A stretch of DNA of 33,703 nucleotides, from contig NZ_JAEHJZ010000017.1 in assembly GCF_016469035.1 (NCBI RefSeq), positions 34,210 to 67,912 on the forward strand, given 5' to 3'. Positions 3,017 through 33,703 of this stretch are shown piece by piece. A program made the translations under genes and the position numbers. The stretch is from Gelidibacter salicanalis. GTDB lineage: Bacteria > Bacteroidota > Bacteroidia > Flavobacteriales > Flavobacteriaceae. Positions within the stretch are counted from its first letter, which is position 1, and every line of letters begins with the position of its first letter. The notes beneath the pieces are model-generated. The model was not told where the DNA came from. It saw only the letters and a list, made by a program, of their open reading frames with translations, and ran no database searches.

Positions 3017-3065
3017 GGAGTTCGGAGTTCGGAGTTCGGAGTTCTGAGTTTGGAGTTTGGAGTTT
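3017..3065. repeat. GGAGTTC heptanucleotide array
   Basis: Seven units of seven bases lie in perfect phase: four GGAGTTC, then TGAGTTT, GGAGTTT and GGAGTTT. The array sits about 30 bases after the lnt stop codon, in the gap between lnt and the convergent sugar transferase gene. The plus strand is purine/GT-rich here, unlike the pyrimidine-rich arrays elsewhere in the window. Confidence 0.85.
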
Positions 3066-3358: not shown

Positions 3359-3435
3359 AAAATCAAAAATCGCAAATCAACAATCTTCAATCTTCAATCT
3401 TCAATCTTCAATCTTCAATCGTAACTCCCAACTCC
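3359..3435. repeat. TCAATCT heptanucleotide array ending at a stop codon
   Basis: Eleven in-phase seven-base units run from 3359 to 3435: AAAATCA, AAAATCG, CAAATCA, ACAATCT, four TCAATCT, TCAATCG, TAACTCC, CAACTCC. The next base is the first base of the reverse-strand stop codon of the sugar transferase gene (3436-3438). The array therefore touches the end of the coding sequence with no spacer. Unit sequence drifts at both ends while the phase is kept. Confidence 0.85.
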
Positions 3436-4915: not shown

Positions 4916-5027
4916 TTCTCTATTCTCTATTCTCTGTTCTCTATTCTCTGTTCTCTATTCTCTATTCTCTGTTCTCTATTCTCTGTTCTCTATTCTCTGT
5001 TCTCTATTCTCTGTTCTCTATTCTCTG
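4916..5027. repeat. TTCTCTR heptanucleotide array, 16 units
   Basis: Sixteen perfect units TTCTCTA or TTCTCTG lie head to tail. The last base of the units reads A A G A G A A G A G A G A G A G, so part of the array looks like an amplified 14-base dimer. It leads straight into the first copy of the twin-hairpin repeat. The small ORFs that cross it encode monotonous SLFSVLYSLF-like peptides and are not credible genes. The 88 bases between this array and the transferase start (4828-4915) are unique sequence and could hold that gene's promoter, but I see no clear motif. Confidence 0.9.
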
Positions 5028-5324
5028 TTCAACATTCGTTATTCTATCCTCCTTATAATCAAACCAAAACCACCTCGTCTTCCGCTTCTTTCCTGAAGCA
5101 GAATCCACTCCTCCTTCACCAGGAGGAGAATTTAAGATGATAGTTAAATATTAAAATAAAGCAAACAAAATAATCGTCCGTGACACCGTGCTTTACTATT
5201 AACTTTCATTATTCGTGATTTGATATTCCATATTCGTGATTCTATTTTTTCTCTACTCTCTATTCTCTGTTCTCTGTTCTCTGTTCTCTGTTCTCTGTTC
5301 TCTGTTCTCTGTTCTCTGTTCTCT
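5027..5324. repeat. twin-hairpin direct repeat, copy 1
   Basis: The repeat begins GTTCAACATT, carries TATCCTCCTTATAATCA (5045-5061), then two adjacent hairpins, then an AT-rich part with CGTCCGTGACACCGTGC, and ends in nine TTCTCTG units (5263-5325). Hairpin A is 5080-5103: a nine-pair stem TTCCGCTTC/GAAGCAGAA with a six-base loop. Hairpin B is 5108-5128: an eight-pair stem CTCCTCCT/AGGAGGAG with a five-base loop. Only four bases separate them. In hairpin A one C faces A on the plus strand, but the minus-strand RNA would form a U-G wobble there. The element lies in the transcribed gap between two minus-strand genes. Confidence 0.88.
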
Positions 5325-5580
5325 GTTCAACATTCGTTATTCTATCCTACTTATAATCAAACCAAAACCACCTCGTCTTCTGCTTCTTTTCTGAAGCAGA
5401 ATCCACTCCTCCTTCACGAGGAGGAGAATTTAAAATGGTAGTTAAATATTAAAATAAAGCAAACAAAATAATCGTCCATGACACCGTGCTTCACTATTAA
5501 CTTTCATTATTCGTGATTTGATATTCCATATTCGTGATTCTATTTTTTCTCTACTCTCTGTTCTCTGTTCTCTGTTCGCT
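5325..5580. repeat. twin-hairpin direct repeat, copy 2
   Basis: This is a near-identical second copy with a 256-base period to the next one. Hairpin A is at 5378-5401 (stem TTCTGCTTC/GAAGCAGAA, fully paired, loop TTTTCT) and hairpin B at 5406-5426 (stem CTCCTCCT/AGGAGGAG, loop TCACG). The tail holds only four heptads, 5554-5581 (CTCTCTG, two TTCTCTG, TTCGCTG). Most of the length difference from copy 1 (298 bases) comes from heptad number. Single-base differences from copy 1 are scattered through the rest. Confidence 0.88.
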
Positions 5581-5702
5581 GTTCAACATTCGTTATTCTA
5601 TCCTACTTATAATCAAACCAAAACCACCTCGTCTTCTGCTTCTCTCCGGAAGCAGAATCCACTCCTCCTTCACGAGGAGGAGAATTTAAGATGATAGTTA
5701 AA
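5581..5702. repeat. twin-hairpin direct repeat, copy 3 (truncated)
   Basis: The third copy starts with the same GTTCAACATT and keeps both hairpins: A at 5634-5657 (stem TTCTGCTTC/GAAGCAGAA, loop TCTCCG) and B at 5662-5682 (stem CTCCTCCT/AGGAGGAG, loop TCACG). It stops after TAGTTAAA, where copies 1 and 2 continue with TATTAAAATAAAG. Instead it passes directly into a heptad array that begins GTTCTCT. The junction suggests that the downstream half was lost or never copied. Confidence 0.85.
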
Positions 5703-5828
5703 GTTCTCTGTTCTATATTCATTATTCAACATTCGTTATTCATTATTCGTTATTCATTATTCATTATTGGATATTCGATATTTTTTCTCTCTCTACTCTC
5801 TACTCTCTACTCTCTACTCTCTACTCTC
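5703..5828. repeat. heptanucleotide array that changes its unit in phase
   Basis: Eighteen in-phase seven-base units run from 5703 to 5828: GTTCTCT, GTTCTAT, then ATTCATT/ATTCGTT-type units, then ATTGGAT, ATTCGAT, ATTTTTT, CTCTCTC and five TACTCTC. The unit changes at least twice but the seven-base register never slips. The last units overlap the reverse-strand stop codon (5821-5823) of the glycosyltransferase gene to the right. On the transcribed-sense strand the final units read GAGAGTA, which puts a TAG in every reading frame within 21 bases. Confidence 0.85.
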
Positions 5829-9292: not shown

Positions 9293-9457
9293 CCATCTAT
9301 GCTTTGTAGTGATTATACATTATTTCTTCCTTTTTATATACTGTCGTTTAAAACCTAACAACATTGCTATCAATAGATTAACGTAGCCAATTCGCAAGAT
9401 ACAGTCTCATCATAACGAGGTTTCCATCAACATTACAAGATATCGTAGCTAAGCTAA

Positions 9458-9569
9458 CCCATAACCCTTAACCCACAACACACAACACACAACCCACAAC
9501 TCACAACCCATAACCCACAACCCACAACCCACAACCCATAACCCACAACACACAACCCACAACCCACAA
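9458..9569 (-). repeat. CCCAYAA heptanucleotide array with G-quadruplex spacing
   Basis: Sixteen in-phase units lie between 9458 and 9569, mostly CCCACAA with CCCATAA, CACACAA and single CCCTTAA and CTCACAA variants. On the minus strand, which is the sense strand of the flanking genes, this reads TTGTGGG repeats. From 9507 to 9544 six consecutive units keep CCC, giving six GGG runs with four-base loops, which meets the usual G3N1-7 quadruplex rule. A further CCC at 9570-9572 overlaps the stop codon of the upstream glycosyltransferase. The 165 bases to the left (9293-9457) are unique sequence without a gene. Confidence 0.88.
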
Positions 9570-9571
9570 CC

Positions 9572-10702
9572 CTAATACCTATAAGTACCCAACAATACCC
9601 GCTCAATATCAGCTTCCAACCGATCAAAAGTATAGCGTTGTGACCATACCAAGGCTGCATTAGCCATGGCCTCTAAATCGGCAGTATTTAAAGCGCTAAC
9701 AATCTGAGACACTGCCACCTCCAATTCTGGTGCTATCAAAATGCCGCGAGAGCCTTCTCCTAACATCCAATTGAGGCATGAGACATTGGTGGCAATTGGA
9801 ATACATCCAAAAAACATGCCTTCAGCCACAGCCTTTGGCCAGCCTTCACTTTTAGAGGGCAAGATATTAAAATGCGCGTTTATCAAAGCCGCTTTAACCA
9901 CACTTTTATCTTGATTACCATATAAAAACACGATCGATTCTAAGTGATTAGATTTAACGTACGCCTGCAATTCAGGCATTAATGGACCATCACCGTACAT
10001 GTGTAAAATTACGGGGAACCCTTTTTGATGTAAGCTTTCAATAATTTGGAGGGTCAATAAAGGGCGTTTCCCTACCACTAGTGCGCCTGCAAACACAAAA
10101 CTTAAGGTCTTTGTATACGTTTTAGGTTGAAATGCTACTTTTTCACTTTTTTTATAGGTGGCAGAGATGAACGGCTGAATATTCTTGGTTTCATTTGGCC
10201 ATTCCCCGTACACCAGCACCTGCATATTCCGGGTTAAAAACGTATTGCGCAAAATAGCTTGTTGCAATCGGTAGGTCCAGGGTTGATCACTATTGGGATC
10301 CCAATTGCCCGCGTATTTGGTCGATTTTTTTTTATGAGGAAAAAAGATTTGTGCAAAACAAGCTACCAAACTCACATTGGCAGGACATCTTAAATGGATA
10401 TGATCAGCCTGACGCATCACTTGCACGCATTTAAAAAAAACATAGGGTACTTTAAAAAGGGTTTTAAAAACATCTAAAATACCTAAAAGATTAAAATTGG
10501 GGACTGGTACAAATTTCAGATGCGTATGGTGATAAGCGGCATCTAATTCCTCAACCTTATGTGTTGATTTTTGAATACCAACCACCACCACTTCATCAAC
10601 ATAATTCCCCCAAAGATTCATTTCATTGACATACGGTGCGTACCCGTAATAACGGCCATCTTTAAAACTGTGTTGTACTAGAGTAAATATGGCGAGTTTC
10701 AT
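9572..10702 (-). CDS. GT4-family glycosyltransferase
   Basis: A 376-residue GT-B-fold enzyme. The donor-binding half is clear: FAGALVVGKRP (204-214), MYGDGPLMPEL (235-245) and LPSKSEGWPKAVAEGMFFG (281-299), the last with E286 and E294 in the EX7E arrangement. The N-terminal half is more divergent, with HLRCPANVSL at 103-112. It probably adds a sugar to the lipid-linked chain at the inner face of the membrane. The ATG overlaps the preceding gene's stop by four bases, so the two are likely coupled in translation. It is the last gene of the block 21400-9572, and its stop codon shares bases with the G-rich heptad array. Confidence 0.87.
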   Translation of the reverse strand: MKLAIFTLVQHSFKDGRYYGYAPYVNEMNLWGNYVDEVVVVGIQKSTHKVEELDAAYHHTHLKFVPVPNFNLLGILDVFKTLFKVPYVFFKCVQVMRQADHIHLRCPANVSLVACFAQIFFPHKKKSTKYAGNWDPNSDQPWTYRLQQAILRNTFLTRNMQVLVYGEWPNETKNIQPFISATYKKSEKVAFQPKTYTKTLSFVFAGALVVGKRPLLTLQIIESLHQKGFPVILHMYGDGPLMPELQAYVKSNHLESIVFLYGNQDKSVVKAALINAHFNILPSKSEGWPKAVAEGMFFGCIPIATNVSCLNWMLGEGSRGILIAPELEVAVSQIVSALNTADLEAMANAALVWSQRYTFDRLEADIERVLLGTYRY

Positions 10703-30367: not shown

Positions 30368-31006
30368 CTATATATTCTTTTTCAAATAACCATTTACATT
30401 AAATGTTCCATTCTTTCCAAACATATCACACCACTTTCTATCAACCGTATATTCAGGGTGAGTCGTTAAAAATTCACGAATAGCTTTAAGTGGTCCACCT
30501 TTAAATTCTTTTTCTAATCCAAGTTCATTAATAATTCCATCTTCAATAATAAAATATGAATCTTTAGACACAATATGGTGGAACTTGTTTAATATTCCTA
30601 TTGTATCAATATATTGATGTGAAGCATCTTCGATAATCAAAATCTTCTCAAAACCATTAGCTAAATTAATGTCATAAGCCTCCCAACCAACATCAAAATA
30701 TTTGATTCGATGGTGCTCTTTAATTTTTGGATCTATAATATTAACAATGTCTATTGTATGAAGCTCTCCTTTTCCAATAAGATCCAAAAGATCCGCAATA
30801 TAAAGCGCCCCTCCTCCTTTATTTGTACCAATTTCAATCACTAAATCTGGCTTAACCTCCCAAAGAATCATCTGGTACATTAAATAATCAAATGGGCATT
30901 TTACTGCCCTAATTCCCTTGTAAGTTACATTGTGATGACCTTTAACAATTGATTCTACAGTAACTTTTACTGCTTCATCTTTACTGATTTTATTAAATCT
31001 AATCAT
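30368..31006 (-). CDS. CmcI-family SAM-dependent O-methyltransferase/hydroxylase-like protein
   Basis: The 212-residue protein matches the CmcI family, named for a cephalosporin biosynthesis enzyme and including rhamnosyl O-methyltransferases: KCPFDYLMYQMILWEVKPD (36-54), VIEIGTNKGGGALYIADLL (56-74), HTIDI (83-87), IIEDASHQYID (124-134), YFIIEDGIINELG (151-163), then GGPLKAIREFL (170-180) and the very typical WCDMFGKNGTFNVNGYLKK (192-210). A sugar O-methyltransferase is the likeliest role given the neighbours. The start overlaps the end of the ABC ATPase gene by eight bases. In O-antigen systems with ABC export, methylation can cap the chain end, which is a possibility here. Confidence 0.83.
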   Translation of the reverse strand: MIRFNKISKDEAVKVTVESIVKGHHNVTYKGIRAVKCPFDYLMYQMILWEVKPDLVIEIGTNKGGGALYIADLLDLIGKGELHTIDIVNIIDPKIKEHHRIKYFDVGWEAYDINLANGFEKILIIEDASHQYIDTIGILNKFHHIVSKDSYFIIEDGIINELGLEKEFKGGPLKAIREFLTTHPEYTVDRKWCDMFGKNGTFNVNGYLKKNI

Positions 31007-32300
31007 TTTTCTTCATTTTATGAGATTCCCATTTTAAATTTGGCCGTATAACACCAGGAAGACTACCAACATAATCCCCCCTTGTTGGACTATTTTTCAA
31101 ATCTTCAACGACATTAAATGCAATTGCATCCCTTTCATGAAAATGTACCTTAAAAGGATCATGTGTCACTAAAGCAACTCCAACTACTATGACTCCTTCT
31201 GAGAAAATATTCTCATAAATCCATACTGTTGCTTCGTAAATCCCTGATTGCTTTTTCTCATGATATAGAATCGTATTGTTCTCATGAGAATCAAAAATGT
31301 TAACACCGCTAGAATTAAAAAAATTAAGTGCTGAATGAATTTTATGTCCGGAGTCTATTACTTCATAAGTAACAGTAACACCTATTTTTTGTGTGATTTT
31401 AAAATTATCAATCATTTCAAAGGCTTGATCATGTGCCTTTACAGATAATAATTTAACAATGTCATTACCATTTTTGTTTTTCCAAACTTTAGAAGAAGTT
31501 GCCCCGAACTCCGTACTCAAATAAGTATCTATGACATGAGAAACTTTTCCACTTTTAATAATATGTCCATTTTTCATTAATATAGCCCTAGTACATAGAC
31601 GCATAATTGAATCCATATTATGACTCACAAACAATACAGTTCGCCCTTCCCCTTTGCTAATATCCTGCATTTTGCCAATGGCTTTTTTCTGGAACTCCGC
31701 ATCGCCAACCGCCAACACCTCATCAATCACTAATATATCAGGTTCTAAATGAGCGGCTACCGCAAAAGCCAATCGTACGGTCATCCCAGAGGAATAGCGT
31801 TTTACAGGCGTATCAATATAGCGTTCACACCCAGAAAAGGAAATGATTTCGTCAATCTTAGAATGAATTTCATTTTTGGTCATTCCCAAAATAGCACCAT
31901 TCAGATATATATTTTCACGCCCAGTCATTTCGGGATGAAACCCAGTACCTACTTCCAATAGTGAAGCTATTCTTCCTTTCGTTTTGATTTCGCCAGTGGT
32001 AGGGCTAGTGACTCTTGAAAGAATTTTTAATAAGGTGGATTTACCCGCACCATTTTTACCGATAATACCCAATACCTCGCCACGCTTCACTTCAAAGTTG
32101 ATGTCTTGTAAGGCCCAAACGTAATCACTTTCCGCTTTGGTACTGCGGTCATTCACTTCTCCAATTTTTAAAAACGGATCCTCTTTACCGCGTACTTTAT
32201 GCCACCAACGGTTCAAATCATGACTGATCGTGCCCGTACCTACAGTACCCAAACGGTACTGCTTACTTATGTTTTCAGCCTTTAAAATAATATCAGTCAT
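30999..32300 (-). CDS. wzt: ABC-2 polysaccharide exporter ATPase with C-terminal chain-recognition domain (Wzt type)
   Basis: The ATPase energises export of a finished lipid-linked glycan across the inner membrane. Of 433 residues, about 1-250 are the nucleotide-binding domain: an N-terminal extension typical of Wzt/TagH (1-65), Walker A GKNGAGKST (81-89), signature YSSGM (169-173), Walker B ILVIDE (189-194), D-loop VGD (198-200) and H-loop H227. Residues 265-433 form a Wzt C-terminal beta-sandwich-like domain, which in known systems binds the chain end and decides which glycan is exported. The membrane partner Wzm is not in the window. The DNA changes composition sharply near the end of the ATPase part (see findings). 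It lies seven bases after the methyltransferase gene upstream. Confidence 0.92.
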   Translation of the reverse strand: MTDIILKAENISKQYRLGTVGTGTISHDLNRWWHKVRGKEDPFLKIGEVNDRSTKAESDYVWALQDINFEVKRGEVLGIIGKNGAGKSTLLKILSRVTSPTTGEIKTKGRIASLLEVGTGFHPEMTGRENIYLNGAILGMTKNEIHSKIDEIISFSGCERYIDTPVKRYSSGMTVRLAFAVAAHLEPDILVIDEVLAVGDAEFQKKAIGKMQDISKGEGRTVLFVSHNMDSIMRLCTRAILMKNGHIIKSGKVSHVIDTYLSTEFGATSSKVWKNKNGNDIVKLLSVKAHDQAFEMIDNFKITQKIGVTVTYEVIDSGHKIHSALNFFNSSGVNIFDSHENNTILYHEKKQSGIYEATVWIYENIFSEGVIVVGVALVTHDPFKVHFHERDAIAFNVVEDLKNSPTRGDYVGSLPGVIRPNLKWESHKMKKND

Positions 32301-32307
32301 TAAAATA

Positions 32308-33171
32308 TCATTTGGGGTTTCTATAAATTACAACTTGACTTCTGGCACCAAAACTACGAATTGTAAGAGGCACATAAGCCTCAAACTCTAAGGCTTTTCG
32401 TTTGAAATGCCCCATATTATTTTGATTTATTGGCAATAACCTATTAAAGCGTTCAAAAATTCCTAAAGGTGTTATTTGTACCGTTCTAAAAAACTTATGT
32501 CCTACTTTGCTGTAATGTGCTGAACTATTATCTCTTGGCGGATGTGGGTCTGATGCCTCCCACTGCTTGAAGGCTTTGGGTTGAAACCATTTTGAGGGCC
32601 TATCGTTCATGGGCGTAGCCCAGCGCAATTCATCTAAAACCTTACTATTCACTGCCGTTTCAAAAAAACGTGCTTCTCCACTCCGCTTCAACACATAGGC
32701 CACTTTTTTCAAAATCTCTTTTTCCAAATCTAAGGTTAAATGATGTAAAAAAGCTTTTCCTATCACAAAGTCAAATGTCTCAGCTGGCAAATCACTCGTT
32801 GTAAAATCACCACTAACAAATCTTATGGGATGCTTAAATGGATAGCTGTCATTTAAAACAGCTACAATAGCACAACTACGTTCTGAAATATCATTTGCGA
32901 CAACCCTCGCACCAAGTGCCGCTAGAATTGCAGCATTTCTACAATCACCACAACCTAATTCTAAAATGTCCATTCCTGCCACTTTACTTTGAAAATCACC
33001 CATATACATTCCAACCCAACTAATATGTGTAGATGTAACAGTTGCCATATAGGTCTCTAAATTATCTAATACTTTAAGTATAGAATCCACGTTTACATTT
33101 TGATAAAGTTTATCATAATGCAATCGATTTGAATCCATGTTTTGTTGACTACTCTTCTCCGCTTTCATCAC
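32308..33171 (-). CDS. class I SAM-dependent methyltransferase
   Basis: The 287-residue protein has MDILELGCGDCRN (67-79) as motif I, VVANDISERS (90-99) with the acidic strand-2 end, FDFVIGKAFLHHLTLD (133-148) and a C-terminal SGEARFFETAV block, the layout of a Methyltransf_11/25 enzyme. Placed directly before wzt, it is a reasonable candidate for a chain-terminating or polysaccharide-modifying methyltransferase, as in O-antigen systems where the capping enzyme is encoded beside the exporter. That role is inferred from position. Two N-terminal methionines (M1, M2) are both possible starts. It is the first polysaccharide gene seen from the right; the repeat-flanked four-helix-bundle gene lies beyond it. 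Confidence 0.82.
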   Translation of the reverse strand: MMKAEKSSQQNMDSNRLHYDKLYQNVNVDSILKVLDNLETYMATVTSTHISWVGMYMGDFQSKVAGMDILELGCGDCRNAAILAALGARVVANDISERSCAIVAVLNDSYPFKHPIRFVSGDFTTSDLPAETFDFVIGKAFLHHLTLDLEKEILKKVAYVLKRSGEARFFETAVNSKVLDELRWATPMNDRPSKWFQPKAFKQWEASDPHPPRDNSSAHYSKVGHKFFRTVQITPLGIFERFNRLLPINQNNMGHFKRKALEFEAYVPLTIRSFGARSQVVIYRNPK

Positions 33172-33231: not shown

Positions 33232-33276
33232 TAGTGAGAGGTGAAGAGTGAAAAGTGAAGAGTGAGACGTGAGAAG
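33232..33276. repeat. RRGTGAR heptanucleotide array, left flank of the four-helix-bundle gene
   Basis: Six in-phase units (TAGTGAG, AGGTGAA, GAGTGAA, AAGTGAA, GAGTGAG, ACGTGAG) plus AAG lie five bases downstream of the stop codon of the four-helix-bundle gene. Read in reverse complement they are YTCACYY units like those on the other side of the gene. The 13 bases TAGTGAGAGGTGA (33232-33244) have an exact inverted match at 33670-33682. Left of the array, 33194-33217 holds ATTTC and GAAAT arms around TTGAGCTTATC, a possible short hairpin of a kind I recall as common in Bacteroidota intergenic DNA. Confidence 0.82.
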
Positions 33277-33281
33277 CTTGG

Positions 33282-33638
33282 TTATTTACTCTGAATGTAA
33301 TTTCTAAAACCAATTAATAACCGCTTTACTTCCAACAACACACCTTCAAATTCTTTATTTATATTACAATATTTTAATCGAACTGCTATCAAATAGTGCG
33401 TCTCCAGTTCTGCCAACGAACCCAATGCAATATGCAAAAATTGAATCAATTCTTTATCACCCTTTCTCCCTGCCCCTTCAGATATATTTGCAGGTATAGA
33501 AACAACTGCTCTCCGAATTTGATTTGTCAAACCAAATTTTTCATCACTAGGAAATTGTGAAGATAGCCGATAAACTAATTCCACCAAATCCATACTTTTT
33601 TTCCAAACGTCTAAATCCTTATGATCCATCCTATTCAT
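33282..33638 (-). CDS. four-helix-bundle protein (S23/IVP family, Avd-related fold)
   Basis: The 118-residue protein is a full-length member of the family first found inside intervening sequences of bacterial 23S rRNA. The signature is intact: HKDLDVWKKSMDLVELVY (6-23) for helix 1, FGLTNQIRRAVVSIPANISE (35-54) with the nearly invariant IPANIxEG, then FLHIALGSLAELETHYLIA (67-85) and KRLLIGFRNY (105-114). Its molecular function is unknown. The related protein Avd forms a pentamer that assists the reverse transcriptase of diversity-generating retroelements. An ATG three codons on (MDHKDL) may be the real start. The gene is not coupled to any neighbour and is flanked by inverted heptad arrays, as if it were a self-contained cassette inserted beside the polysaccharide genes. 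Confidence 0.9.
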   Translation of the reverse strand: MNRMDHKDLDVWKKSMDLVELVYRLSSQFPSDEKFGLTNQIRRAVVSIPANISEGAGRKGDKELIQFLHIALGSLAELETHYLIAVRLKYCNINKEFEGVLLEVKRLLIGFRNYIQSK

Positions 33639-33703
33639 TATTCACTATTAACTTTTCGCTCCTCACTACTCACCTCTCACTACTCACTTCTCACTTCTCA
33701 CTT
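33631..33703. repeat. YTCACYY heptanucleotide array, right flank of the four-helix-bundle gene
   Basis: In-phase units run from the start codon region to the end of the window: CTATTCA (containing the reverse-strand ATG at 33636-33638), TTATTCA, CTATTAA, CTTTTCG, CTCCTCA, CTACTCA, CCTCTCA, CTACTCA, CTTCTCA, CTTCTCA and CTT. The array is cut by the window edge, so its full length is unknown. It is the inverted counterpart of the array at 33232-33276. Confidence 0.82.

Follow-up and report, generated by a model that had tools for sequence, protein, structure and literature searches.

The gene of the S23/IVP four-helix-bundle family near the end of the analysed Gelidibacter salicanalis DNA (a stretch of 33,703 nucleotides, hereafter the window), together with the heptad arrays that face each other across it, may represent one copy of a widespread, DNA-level insertion unit, whose heptads would be recognised by the S23 protein in an arrangement resembling that of REPIN-RAYT systems; we hold this reading with about even confidence. 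The same layout occurs at many unrelated junctions in several phyla, mostly between adjacent genes of an operon, and is absent from tight orthologous junctions. The features of the window locus, including those of the adjoining genes on contigs C78 (the contig of the window) and C574, are as follows.

33282..33638, minus strand: S23/IVP four-helix-bundle gene, 118 aa (PF05635 and TIGR02436 profiles)
33233..33274, plus strand: left heptad array, the downstream arm of the gene, GTGARRR on the plus strand (tandem-repeat and inverted-arm analysis)
33651..33703, minus strand: right heptad array, the upstream arm, inverted; it exits at the end of contig C78, and its variant on C574 extends up to the permease stop codon
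33232..33244, plus strand: left half of an exact 13-base inverted pair (TAGTGAGAGGTGA)
33670..33682, minus strand: right half of this pair, the exact reverse complement of 33232-33244
32308..33171, minus strand: SAM-dependent methyltransferase, the next downstream gene, co-directional with S23 (profile search)
30999..32300, minus strand: ABC exporter ATPase of polysaccharide type, assigned to the same operon (profile search)
C574:153-1013: partner ABC permease, upstream (named on the basis of its sequence and of the ATPase with which it is paired)

The assignment of the gene to the S23/IVP family, made in the initial annotation of this DNA, is confirmed by matches above the curated cut-offs of both PF05635 (123 bits, cut-off 33.8) and TIGR02436 (117.4 bits, cut-off 24). 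An alternative start three codons inward would give a 115 aa product beginning with MDHKDLDVW. The exact 13-base inverted pair pointed out in the same annotation is reproduced by a direct reverse-complement match. Its further claim, that one heptad family stands in opposite orientation on either side of S23, is supported by the flank-to-flank inverted score of 38, which was reached by none of 300 dinucleotide-preserving shuffles (mean 17.5, sd 2.8, maximum 29); the 28 other genes called in the window have a mean score of 14.8 and a maximum of 22. Both arrays have tandem periods of 7/14, and the inverted arms of 45-46 nt show a complementarity of 74-76%, with the best short pair covering 16 nt at 94%. 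RRGTGAR alone is not enriched across the window (29 occurrences counted vs. 28.9 expected); the oddity of the locus consists in four exact contiguous RRGTGAR units on the left and four opposite-strand units, not all of them adjacent, on the right.

Contig C78 and the window end together, within the right array, and the right boundary therefore lies outside the window. The first 21 bases of contig C574 match window positions 33612-33632 exactly (the S23 start included) and are followed by an indel variant of the array running, with zero gap, to the stop codon of the ABC permease gene. The extension past 33703, from which the initial annotation had expected the right boundary, thus yields a variant of the array up to the permease, while the join of C78 to C574 itself is a probable one, based on the 21-base overlap and operon logic. 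As the C574 array ends at the permease stop, the order on the minus strand would be permease, array, S23, inverted array, methyltransferase, and ABC ATPase, which would place the unit within a permease/methyltransferase/ATPase operon. The two contig ends, C78 (33612-33703) and C574:1-150 (L030, L213), differ by indels in their arrays, pointing to strain variation or to a break in the assembly at this array. At this very junction, S23 is missing from seven congeners, in which GTGAG-like heptads of one orientation or other repeats are found; an eighth (G002; L118/L217) carries a different S23 with ACAGACA-type heptads at the same permease/ABC-ATPase junction. In several congeners without S23 (L218, L219, L221, L223, and L224), the permease/ATPase junction is filled by a palindromic repeat whose core resembles GCGTCATTGCGAGG.

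Inverted flanks recur around S23 genes far beyond the window. The Gelidibacter genome contains 16 PF05635 matches, and at 15 of their loci (L016, a fragment, was omitted) the inverted score of a gene's own flanks averages 31.9 vs. 18.1 for mismatched flanks. The corresponding means are 27.9 vs. 17.1 for the order (85 unique loci, left from 113 frames with a match after E-value, length, duplicate, and flank filters; 56 of the 85 exceed 95% of their mismatched pairs), 26.1 vs. 16.4 phylum-wide (30 loci, 16 above 95% of mismatched pairs), 37.1 vs. 20.9 for named Bacteroidota (48 loci, 20 above 95%), and 34.0 vs. 17.4 for other phyla (31 loci, 16 above 95%), which include Planctomycetes, Nitrospirae, Chloroflexi, cyanobacteria, and Gastranaerophilales. 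The last two sets come from 79 of 80 loci of named genomes (L262 has too little flank), split by record titles and including some near-duplicates, e.g., among Gastranaerophilales. In the case of cyanobacterial plasmids (13 of the 23 plasmid records with a match were used), the means for 13 loci are 32.7 vs. 18.4, with seven loci reaching a score of 24 and six below it. None of 20,000 permutations gave a value as high in any of these sets. The suspicion of the initial annotation that gene and inverted heptads form a cassette is supported, and the cassette recurs in the genome of origin, the order, the phylum, other phyla, and cyanobacterial plasmids. As to the survey of four-helix-bundle genes proposed there, own pairs score higher than mismatched ones in every set, but the wider set (148 loci, 133 with both neighbours called and 103 armed) includes loci without clear arms, namely, 40 of the 133, whose scores lie under 24. 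The layout is common around S23 genes, not universal. In the 85-locus set, flank similarity is elevated in the same direction as well (mean 22.5, median 18). The S23 gene of a Pseudanabaena plasmid (L347) departs from the inverted arrangement, as the GCTAAAA-type heptads on its two sides share one direction. S23/IVP genes as such occur in 90 of 118 sampled genomes of the phylum, in 87 of them above the family cut-off.

Autocorrelation in the intergenic flanks of S23 genes (33 upstream and 26 downstream flanks from 39 junction clusters) peaks at lags 7, 14, and 21, with values of 1.55, 1.45, and 1.25 upstream and 1.38, 1.27, and 1.18 downstream, compared with 1.03-1.04 in 132 control intergenics; in other phyla the values at lag 7 are 1.56 and 1.66 vs. 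1.27 in same-locus controls. Some arms appear by eye closer to period 8 (L001, L010, and L310). Within an armed unit, one 7-base word is present in opposite orientation in the two arms, and this word varies between S23 lineages: it is of GTGARRR type in the window and, as judged by eye, of TAGAGAA, ATCGAAT, AGGGAAC, AGGCAGT, GTGGTCA, or GCGAGCG type elsewhere. The idea of a short motif universal to all heptads, as in TRAP-like ring binding, was rejected, as no dinucleotide is universal: among 144 5' flanks, recurrence at lag 7 was found for AG in 73, GT in 70, GA in 66, and AA in 92. In 91 of the 103 armed loci, the G-richer heptad strand points into the gene when read 5' to 3'. The six armed loci with both neighbours on the opposite strand have this polarity too, which indicates that it belongs to the unit.

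The window and 400 kb of contig C325 together contain 24 merged heptad-type arrays (periods 7, 14, 21, and 28), three of which touch S23; at the four S23 genes of C325, the tandem-repeat finder detected an array in one case. A strong inverted partner lies within 700 bp of each of the three S23-adjacent arrays (scores 34, 34, and 38) and of none of the 21 others (14-22). Among the S23-free intergenics of C325, 3 of 155 reach an inverted score of 30, none of them heptad-like by eye. In the examined part of the genome, heptads are not confined to S23, whereas facing pairs are. Arrays unrelated to the gene, named in the initial annotation as the case that would speak against a cassette, do occur in single orientation, which indicates that arrays can arise or persist otherwise, but these 21 have no inverted partner. 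One stretch of the window (4916-5584) consists of near-identical copies of a 298-bp unit made up mostly of TTCTCTR heptads, in one orientation, without S23 and without a strong inverted partner. More heptad-type arrays of varied words, single orientation, and no S23 lie at 1221-1348, 3017-3064, 3368-3420, 5711-5828, and 9456-9572.

Filled and empty junctions from different species or genera were compared by eye at atpA/atpG, mraY/murD, and sdhA/sdhB (60 genomes searched, 30 loci listed per junction). Among the 30 listed loci, S23 is present in at least three, two, and four cases, respectively, and by coordinates G016 and G019 also have S23 beside atpG. Tight junctions with neither gene nor arrays amount to at least 2, 19, and 15 of the 30 listed in each case, and gene-less hairpins to at least nine (mostly in other genera), one, and two; the remaining listed loci have other gaps or other ORFs, or are not assignable. 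In one congener (L154), the mraY/murD hairpin still contains the two arms and roughly the final 20 codons of S23 (ANEILSIIVASIKT...); the gene was thus lost by internal deletion, with the arms staying in place. The remaining gene-less hairpins would likewise be remnants of units. Tight junctions without both gene and arrays, taken together with arm-only hairpins, argue for arm-gene-arm as an insertion unit. As to whether arrays and gene leave together in strains lacking the gene, a comparison proposed in the initial annotation, the answer is divided: the tight junctions have neither, while the arm-only hairpins, with L154 as a clear deletion derivative, keep the arms. At the sdhA/sdhB junction of two genera, small ORFs that are not S23 and look membrane-protein-like by eye were noted (L194, L206).

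S23 is under purifying selection, with a median dN/dS of 0.078 and a maximum of 0.372 among 46 orthologue pairs, many of which are not independent and all of which have a synonymous difference of 0.10-0.65. On the S23 tree there are 20 junction changes, with a minimum of 19 and a value of 56.2 for shuffled labels. S23 lineages thus keep to their junctions, which fits vertical inheritance or homing. The copy at an sdhA/sdhB junction, L201, clusters at 100/95 with thiolase-junction copies and has the arm motif GAGAAAATAGA in common with them, and it looks as if gene and arms moved together. The sole closely similar pair within one genome on the S23 tree is a tandem one, and recent dispersal is therefore not seen; this pair (L004 and L006, on C348 of the Gelidibacter genome) is made up of S23 genes that are almost the same in sequence and lie about 730 bp from each other, one of them stop-interrupted.

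An ordinary host gene could likewise be under purifying selection and keep to its site. S23 might, for instance, be a host regulator that, by binding its own heptads in DNA or RNA, modulates or insulates the surrounding operon, its mobility being incidental. The strength of selection and the presence of one lineage per junction speak for such a role, as do positions inside core operons and in cas or cmr operons on plasmids. In the Gelidibacter genome, the neighbours of S23 identified by family models are sufC, sdhA, sdhB, atpA, the ATP synthase gamma subunit gene, mraY, and murD (further neighbours were named by eye), with S23 located in the core operons at atpA/gamma subunit, sdhA/sdhB, and mraY/murD and downstream of sufC. 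On cyanobacterial plasmids, S23 was found within CRISPR operons, flanked either by cas6 and cas4 or by cas10 and a cmr3-type gene (L346, L347, and L349). However, among the 30 loci listed per junction, S23 is absent at 27 atpG, 28 murD (two undecided), and 26 sdhB (one undecided) loci, which indicates that these operons do not need S23. Moreover, the frame is interrupted in 2 of the 16 matches of this genome and in more of the matches listed in relatives, and arm-only derivatives persist. We therefore regard the regulator reading as unlikely.

The main rival to a DNA-level unit is an RNA element of the type of rRNA intervening sequences (IVSs), in which the co-transcribed unit would fold into a long stem formed by its arms, with a loop containing the S23 ORF, and would be processed by RNase III or a similar enzyme. 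The Coxiella IVS has just these parts, namely, an S23 ORF, terminal inverted repeats, and excision by RNase III (PMC4990558). For the RNA of the window unit, the predicted folding energy is -122.1 kcal/mol (z -3.3), with the arms paired in both the MFE and the centroid structure, and MFE folds of 38 loci have a median of 26.5 flank-to-flank pairs, with 12 or more pairs in 35 of 38 loci vs. 22 of 76 folds with swapped 3' flanks. In other phyla the contrast is weak (25/31 vs. 18/31). Co-directionality with the neighbours would also suit co-transcription. In the 85-locus set, where a simple ORF caller gave both neighbours for 73 loci, S23 is co-directional with both in 68 of 73 and antisense to both in none, compared with 152 and 24, respectively, of 266 control genes; the count for junction clusters is 31 of 35. 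The wider set gives 106 of 133 co-directional loci, to be compared with the same 152 of 266 control genes, and eight antisense to both; six of these eight are armed, which stands against the RNA reading. The sense orientation of S23 is thus a strong tendency, not a rule. An impression first gained from two loci, that loci not in sense orientation lack arms, was abandoned, because the presence of arms shows no association with co-directionality (Fisher p 0.81), which in turn argues against an arm function in RNA.

The mismatches of the arms bear most directly on this alternative. By a criterion of our own, that an RNA stem tolerates G-U over A-C, the 103 armed loci display no wobble preference (124 G-U-type vs. 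127 A-C-type mismatches), whereas G-U is favoured in tRNA (10 vs. 0 in six tRNAs) and in terminator-like stems (78 vs. 51), although these controls are small and noisy. Given that there is no G-U excess, we assign the arms a function in DNA, with about even confidence. The long imperfect stem with the ORF in its loop, envisaged in the initial annotation, can fold, but as a selected feature it was demoted from the best explanation by the wobble test, and the six armed copies antisense to both neighbours do not suit it. No rRNA was detected by Rfam in the 28 loci scanned (10 + 18), including the window unit (L002), where the neighbours are a permease and a methyltransferase, so the same annotation was correct in noting that there is no rRNA at this locus. 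Taken together, the IVS-like RNA element appears to us possible but doubtful.

If S23 recognises its own heptads at the DNA level, the word and the protein would be expected to change together. Between non-homologous junctions, heptad similarity rises with S23 identity, from 16.7 below 45% identity (pairs sampled at about 0.3) through 18.0 at 45-55% and 21.1 at 55-65% to 29.9 at 65% and above; shared descent of the unit instead of recognition could also account for this correlation. Covariation of orthologous arms is weak (own arms better than swapped in 37 comparisons and worse in 24, p 0.12), and strict compensatory covariation was rejected on these numbers. In the arms of the window lineage, own pairs score 30.0 vs. 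26.0 for swapped ones (35/20,000 permutations). The closest solved relatives of the window S23 by sequence are 2gsc (Xcc0516) and 2rld, with five chains each, and the title of the Xcc0516 structure paper, as given in the reference list of PMC10053308, names a five-bundle assembly. In the mechanism that we propose, a stably inherited and selected gene would be flanked by inverted intergenic repeats and would act on them, as in the REPIN-RAYT type: the S23 pentamer is predicted to bind its own heptads, the arms would serve as DNA-level terminal recognition sites, and rare relocation would take place via some enzyme or host recombination. The unit contains no transposase, integrase, or nuclease domain, PF05635 being the sole domain match of the gene.

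The arms could also be a neutral by-product, formed by slippage and quasi-palindrome template switching that expand heptads around any old insertion, with S23 as a passenger. Single-orientation arrays without S23, the lack of wobble preference, and the orthologous arms of L011/L120, whose changes look like heptad homogenisation instead of strict compensation, are in line with such an origin, which nevertheless seems improbable to us in view of the 341 other genes of C325, whose inverted flank score is not raised (mean 17.5), the restriction of inverted partners to the S23-adjacent arrays, the tracking of S23 identity by the heptad word across hosts, and a polarity that follows the gene.

The link to Avd drawn in the initial annotation is weak. 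The window S23 scores 23.6 bits with the Avd model NF033474, below its cut-off of 80, and no reverse transcriptase (RVT_1) was found in three relatives (G005, G015, and G016) with 8, 11, and 16 PF05635 matches, respectively, among the matches listed; the Gelidibacter genome has four RVT_1 matches, none of them on contig C78. A retro-element in which S23 cooperates with a reverse transcriptase in trans and moves through RNA would agree with the weak profile similarity and the mostly sense orientation in operons, but given these RVT_1 results we consider it highly improbable. It is largely refuted as a general requirement, while a past event of this kind is possible.

A wider reading of the DNA-level unit is that S23/IVP proteins are the partners of bacterial heptameric repeats. 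We put it forward tentatively, as something short of an even chance. The protein of each S23 lineage would be a pentamer without catalytic activity and would recognise a 7-base word specific to it, with which it co-evolves, in a REPIN-RAYT-like but transposase-free, pan-bacterial repeat-protein system. In this view, IVSs would be the form of the system residing in rRNA, and its arms, with or without the gene, would be what is known from Nostoc, Calothrix, and Xanthomonas as orphan heptameric repeats. The role of S23 and the function of heptameric repeats, so far two puzzles, would then merge into one question, that of S23 binding to its own heptads. If true, this would define a family of protein and DNA partners in which the 7-base word is specific to the lineage, as well as a new class of repeat-gene unit inside core and CRISPR operons, and would offer a possible source of rRNA intervening sequences. 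In the open-access literature, that is, outside most subscription journals and preprints, we found S23 genes with heptad or inverted flanks nowhere described except in rRNA. PMC5524665 lists, in a table on phage regions, guanylate kinase, a four helix bundle protein, and nicotinate nucleotide adenylyltransferase in succession, with no comment on this layout beside the entries.

As regards known systems, the window gene is a member of the S23/IVP family and is not a 23S rRNA IVS, a diversity-generating Avd (DGR Avd), or a RAYT. The DGR Avd family is related to it in two ways, by profile similarity and through a structural comparison to which PMC10053308 refers, but the window S23 remains under the Avd cut-off and a reverse transcriptase is not required. 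Unlike in DNA transposons and MITEs, the S23 arms vary from locus to locus, and there are no near-identical terminal repeats across the copies of the genome. The similarity to the 23S rRNA IVS of Coxiella, which is 428 nt long (PMC4990558), consists in an S23 ORF placed between pairable terminal inverted repeats within a few hundred bases. The same paper describes a patchy distribution of IVSs in other bacteria, as well as, in its abstract, a Coxiella IVS protein that is seemingly not made in vivo and whose ORF is decaying. The units studied here differ in their location outside rRNA, in arms that are heptad arrays, in showing no sign of selection for an RNA stem, and in the purifying selection on S23.

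The heptameric repeats of Xanthomonas and Nostoc, found also in Calothrix, are G-rich 7-base units that are mostly intergenic and lie near stop codons on the coding strand (PMC4692102, main text). In Xanthomonas they often form convergent pairs (70 in Xcc and 75 in Xac), while few are paired in the Nostoc strain studied there; their function is left open, and the term S23 is absent from the main text of that paper. The likeness to our units lies in several cyanobacterial S23 genes flanked by AGGGAAC-type heptads, and the solved S23 protein Xcc0516 (2gsc) comes from Xanthomonas campestris. In the tRNA-Leu intron of Nostoc, 7-base repeat motifs of the P6b region pair into a stem, and their origin is stated to be unknown in the relevant section of PMC4476775; as a lead only, these could be remnants of S23-type arms. 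We predict that the Xanthomonas and Nostoc heptameric repeats are likely the same arrays as the S23 arms.

REPIN-RAYT systems consist of a vertically inherited single gene with inverted intergenic repeats around it and gene-less paired repeats elsewhere, and the RAYT is an HUH tyrosine transposase. The S23 gene is similarly flanked by inverted copies of an intergenic repeat, but PF05635 alone matches it and there is no match to the HUH tyrosine transposase domain (Y1_Tnp). The S23 unit resembles the IVS in its anatomy and REPIN-RAYT in its inheritance.
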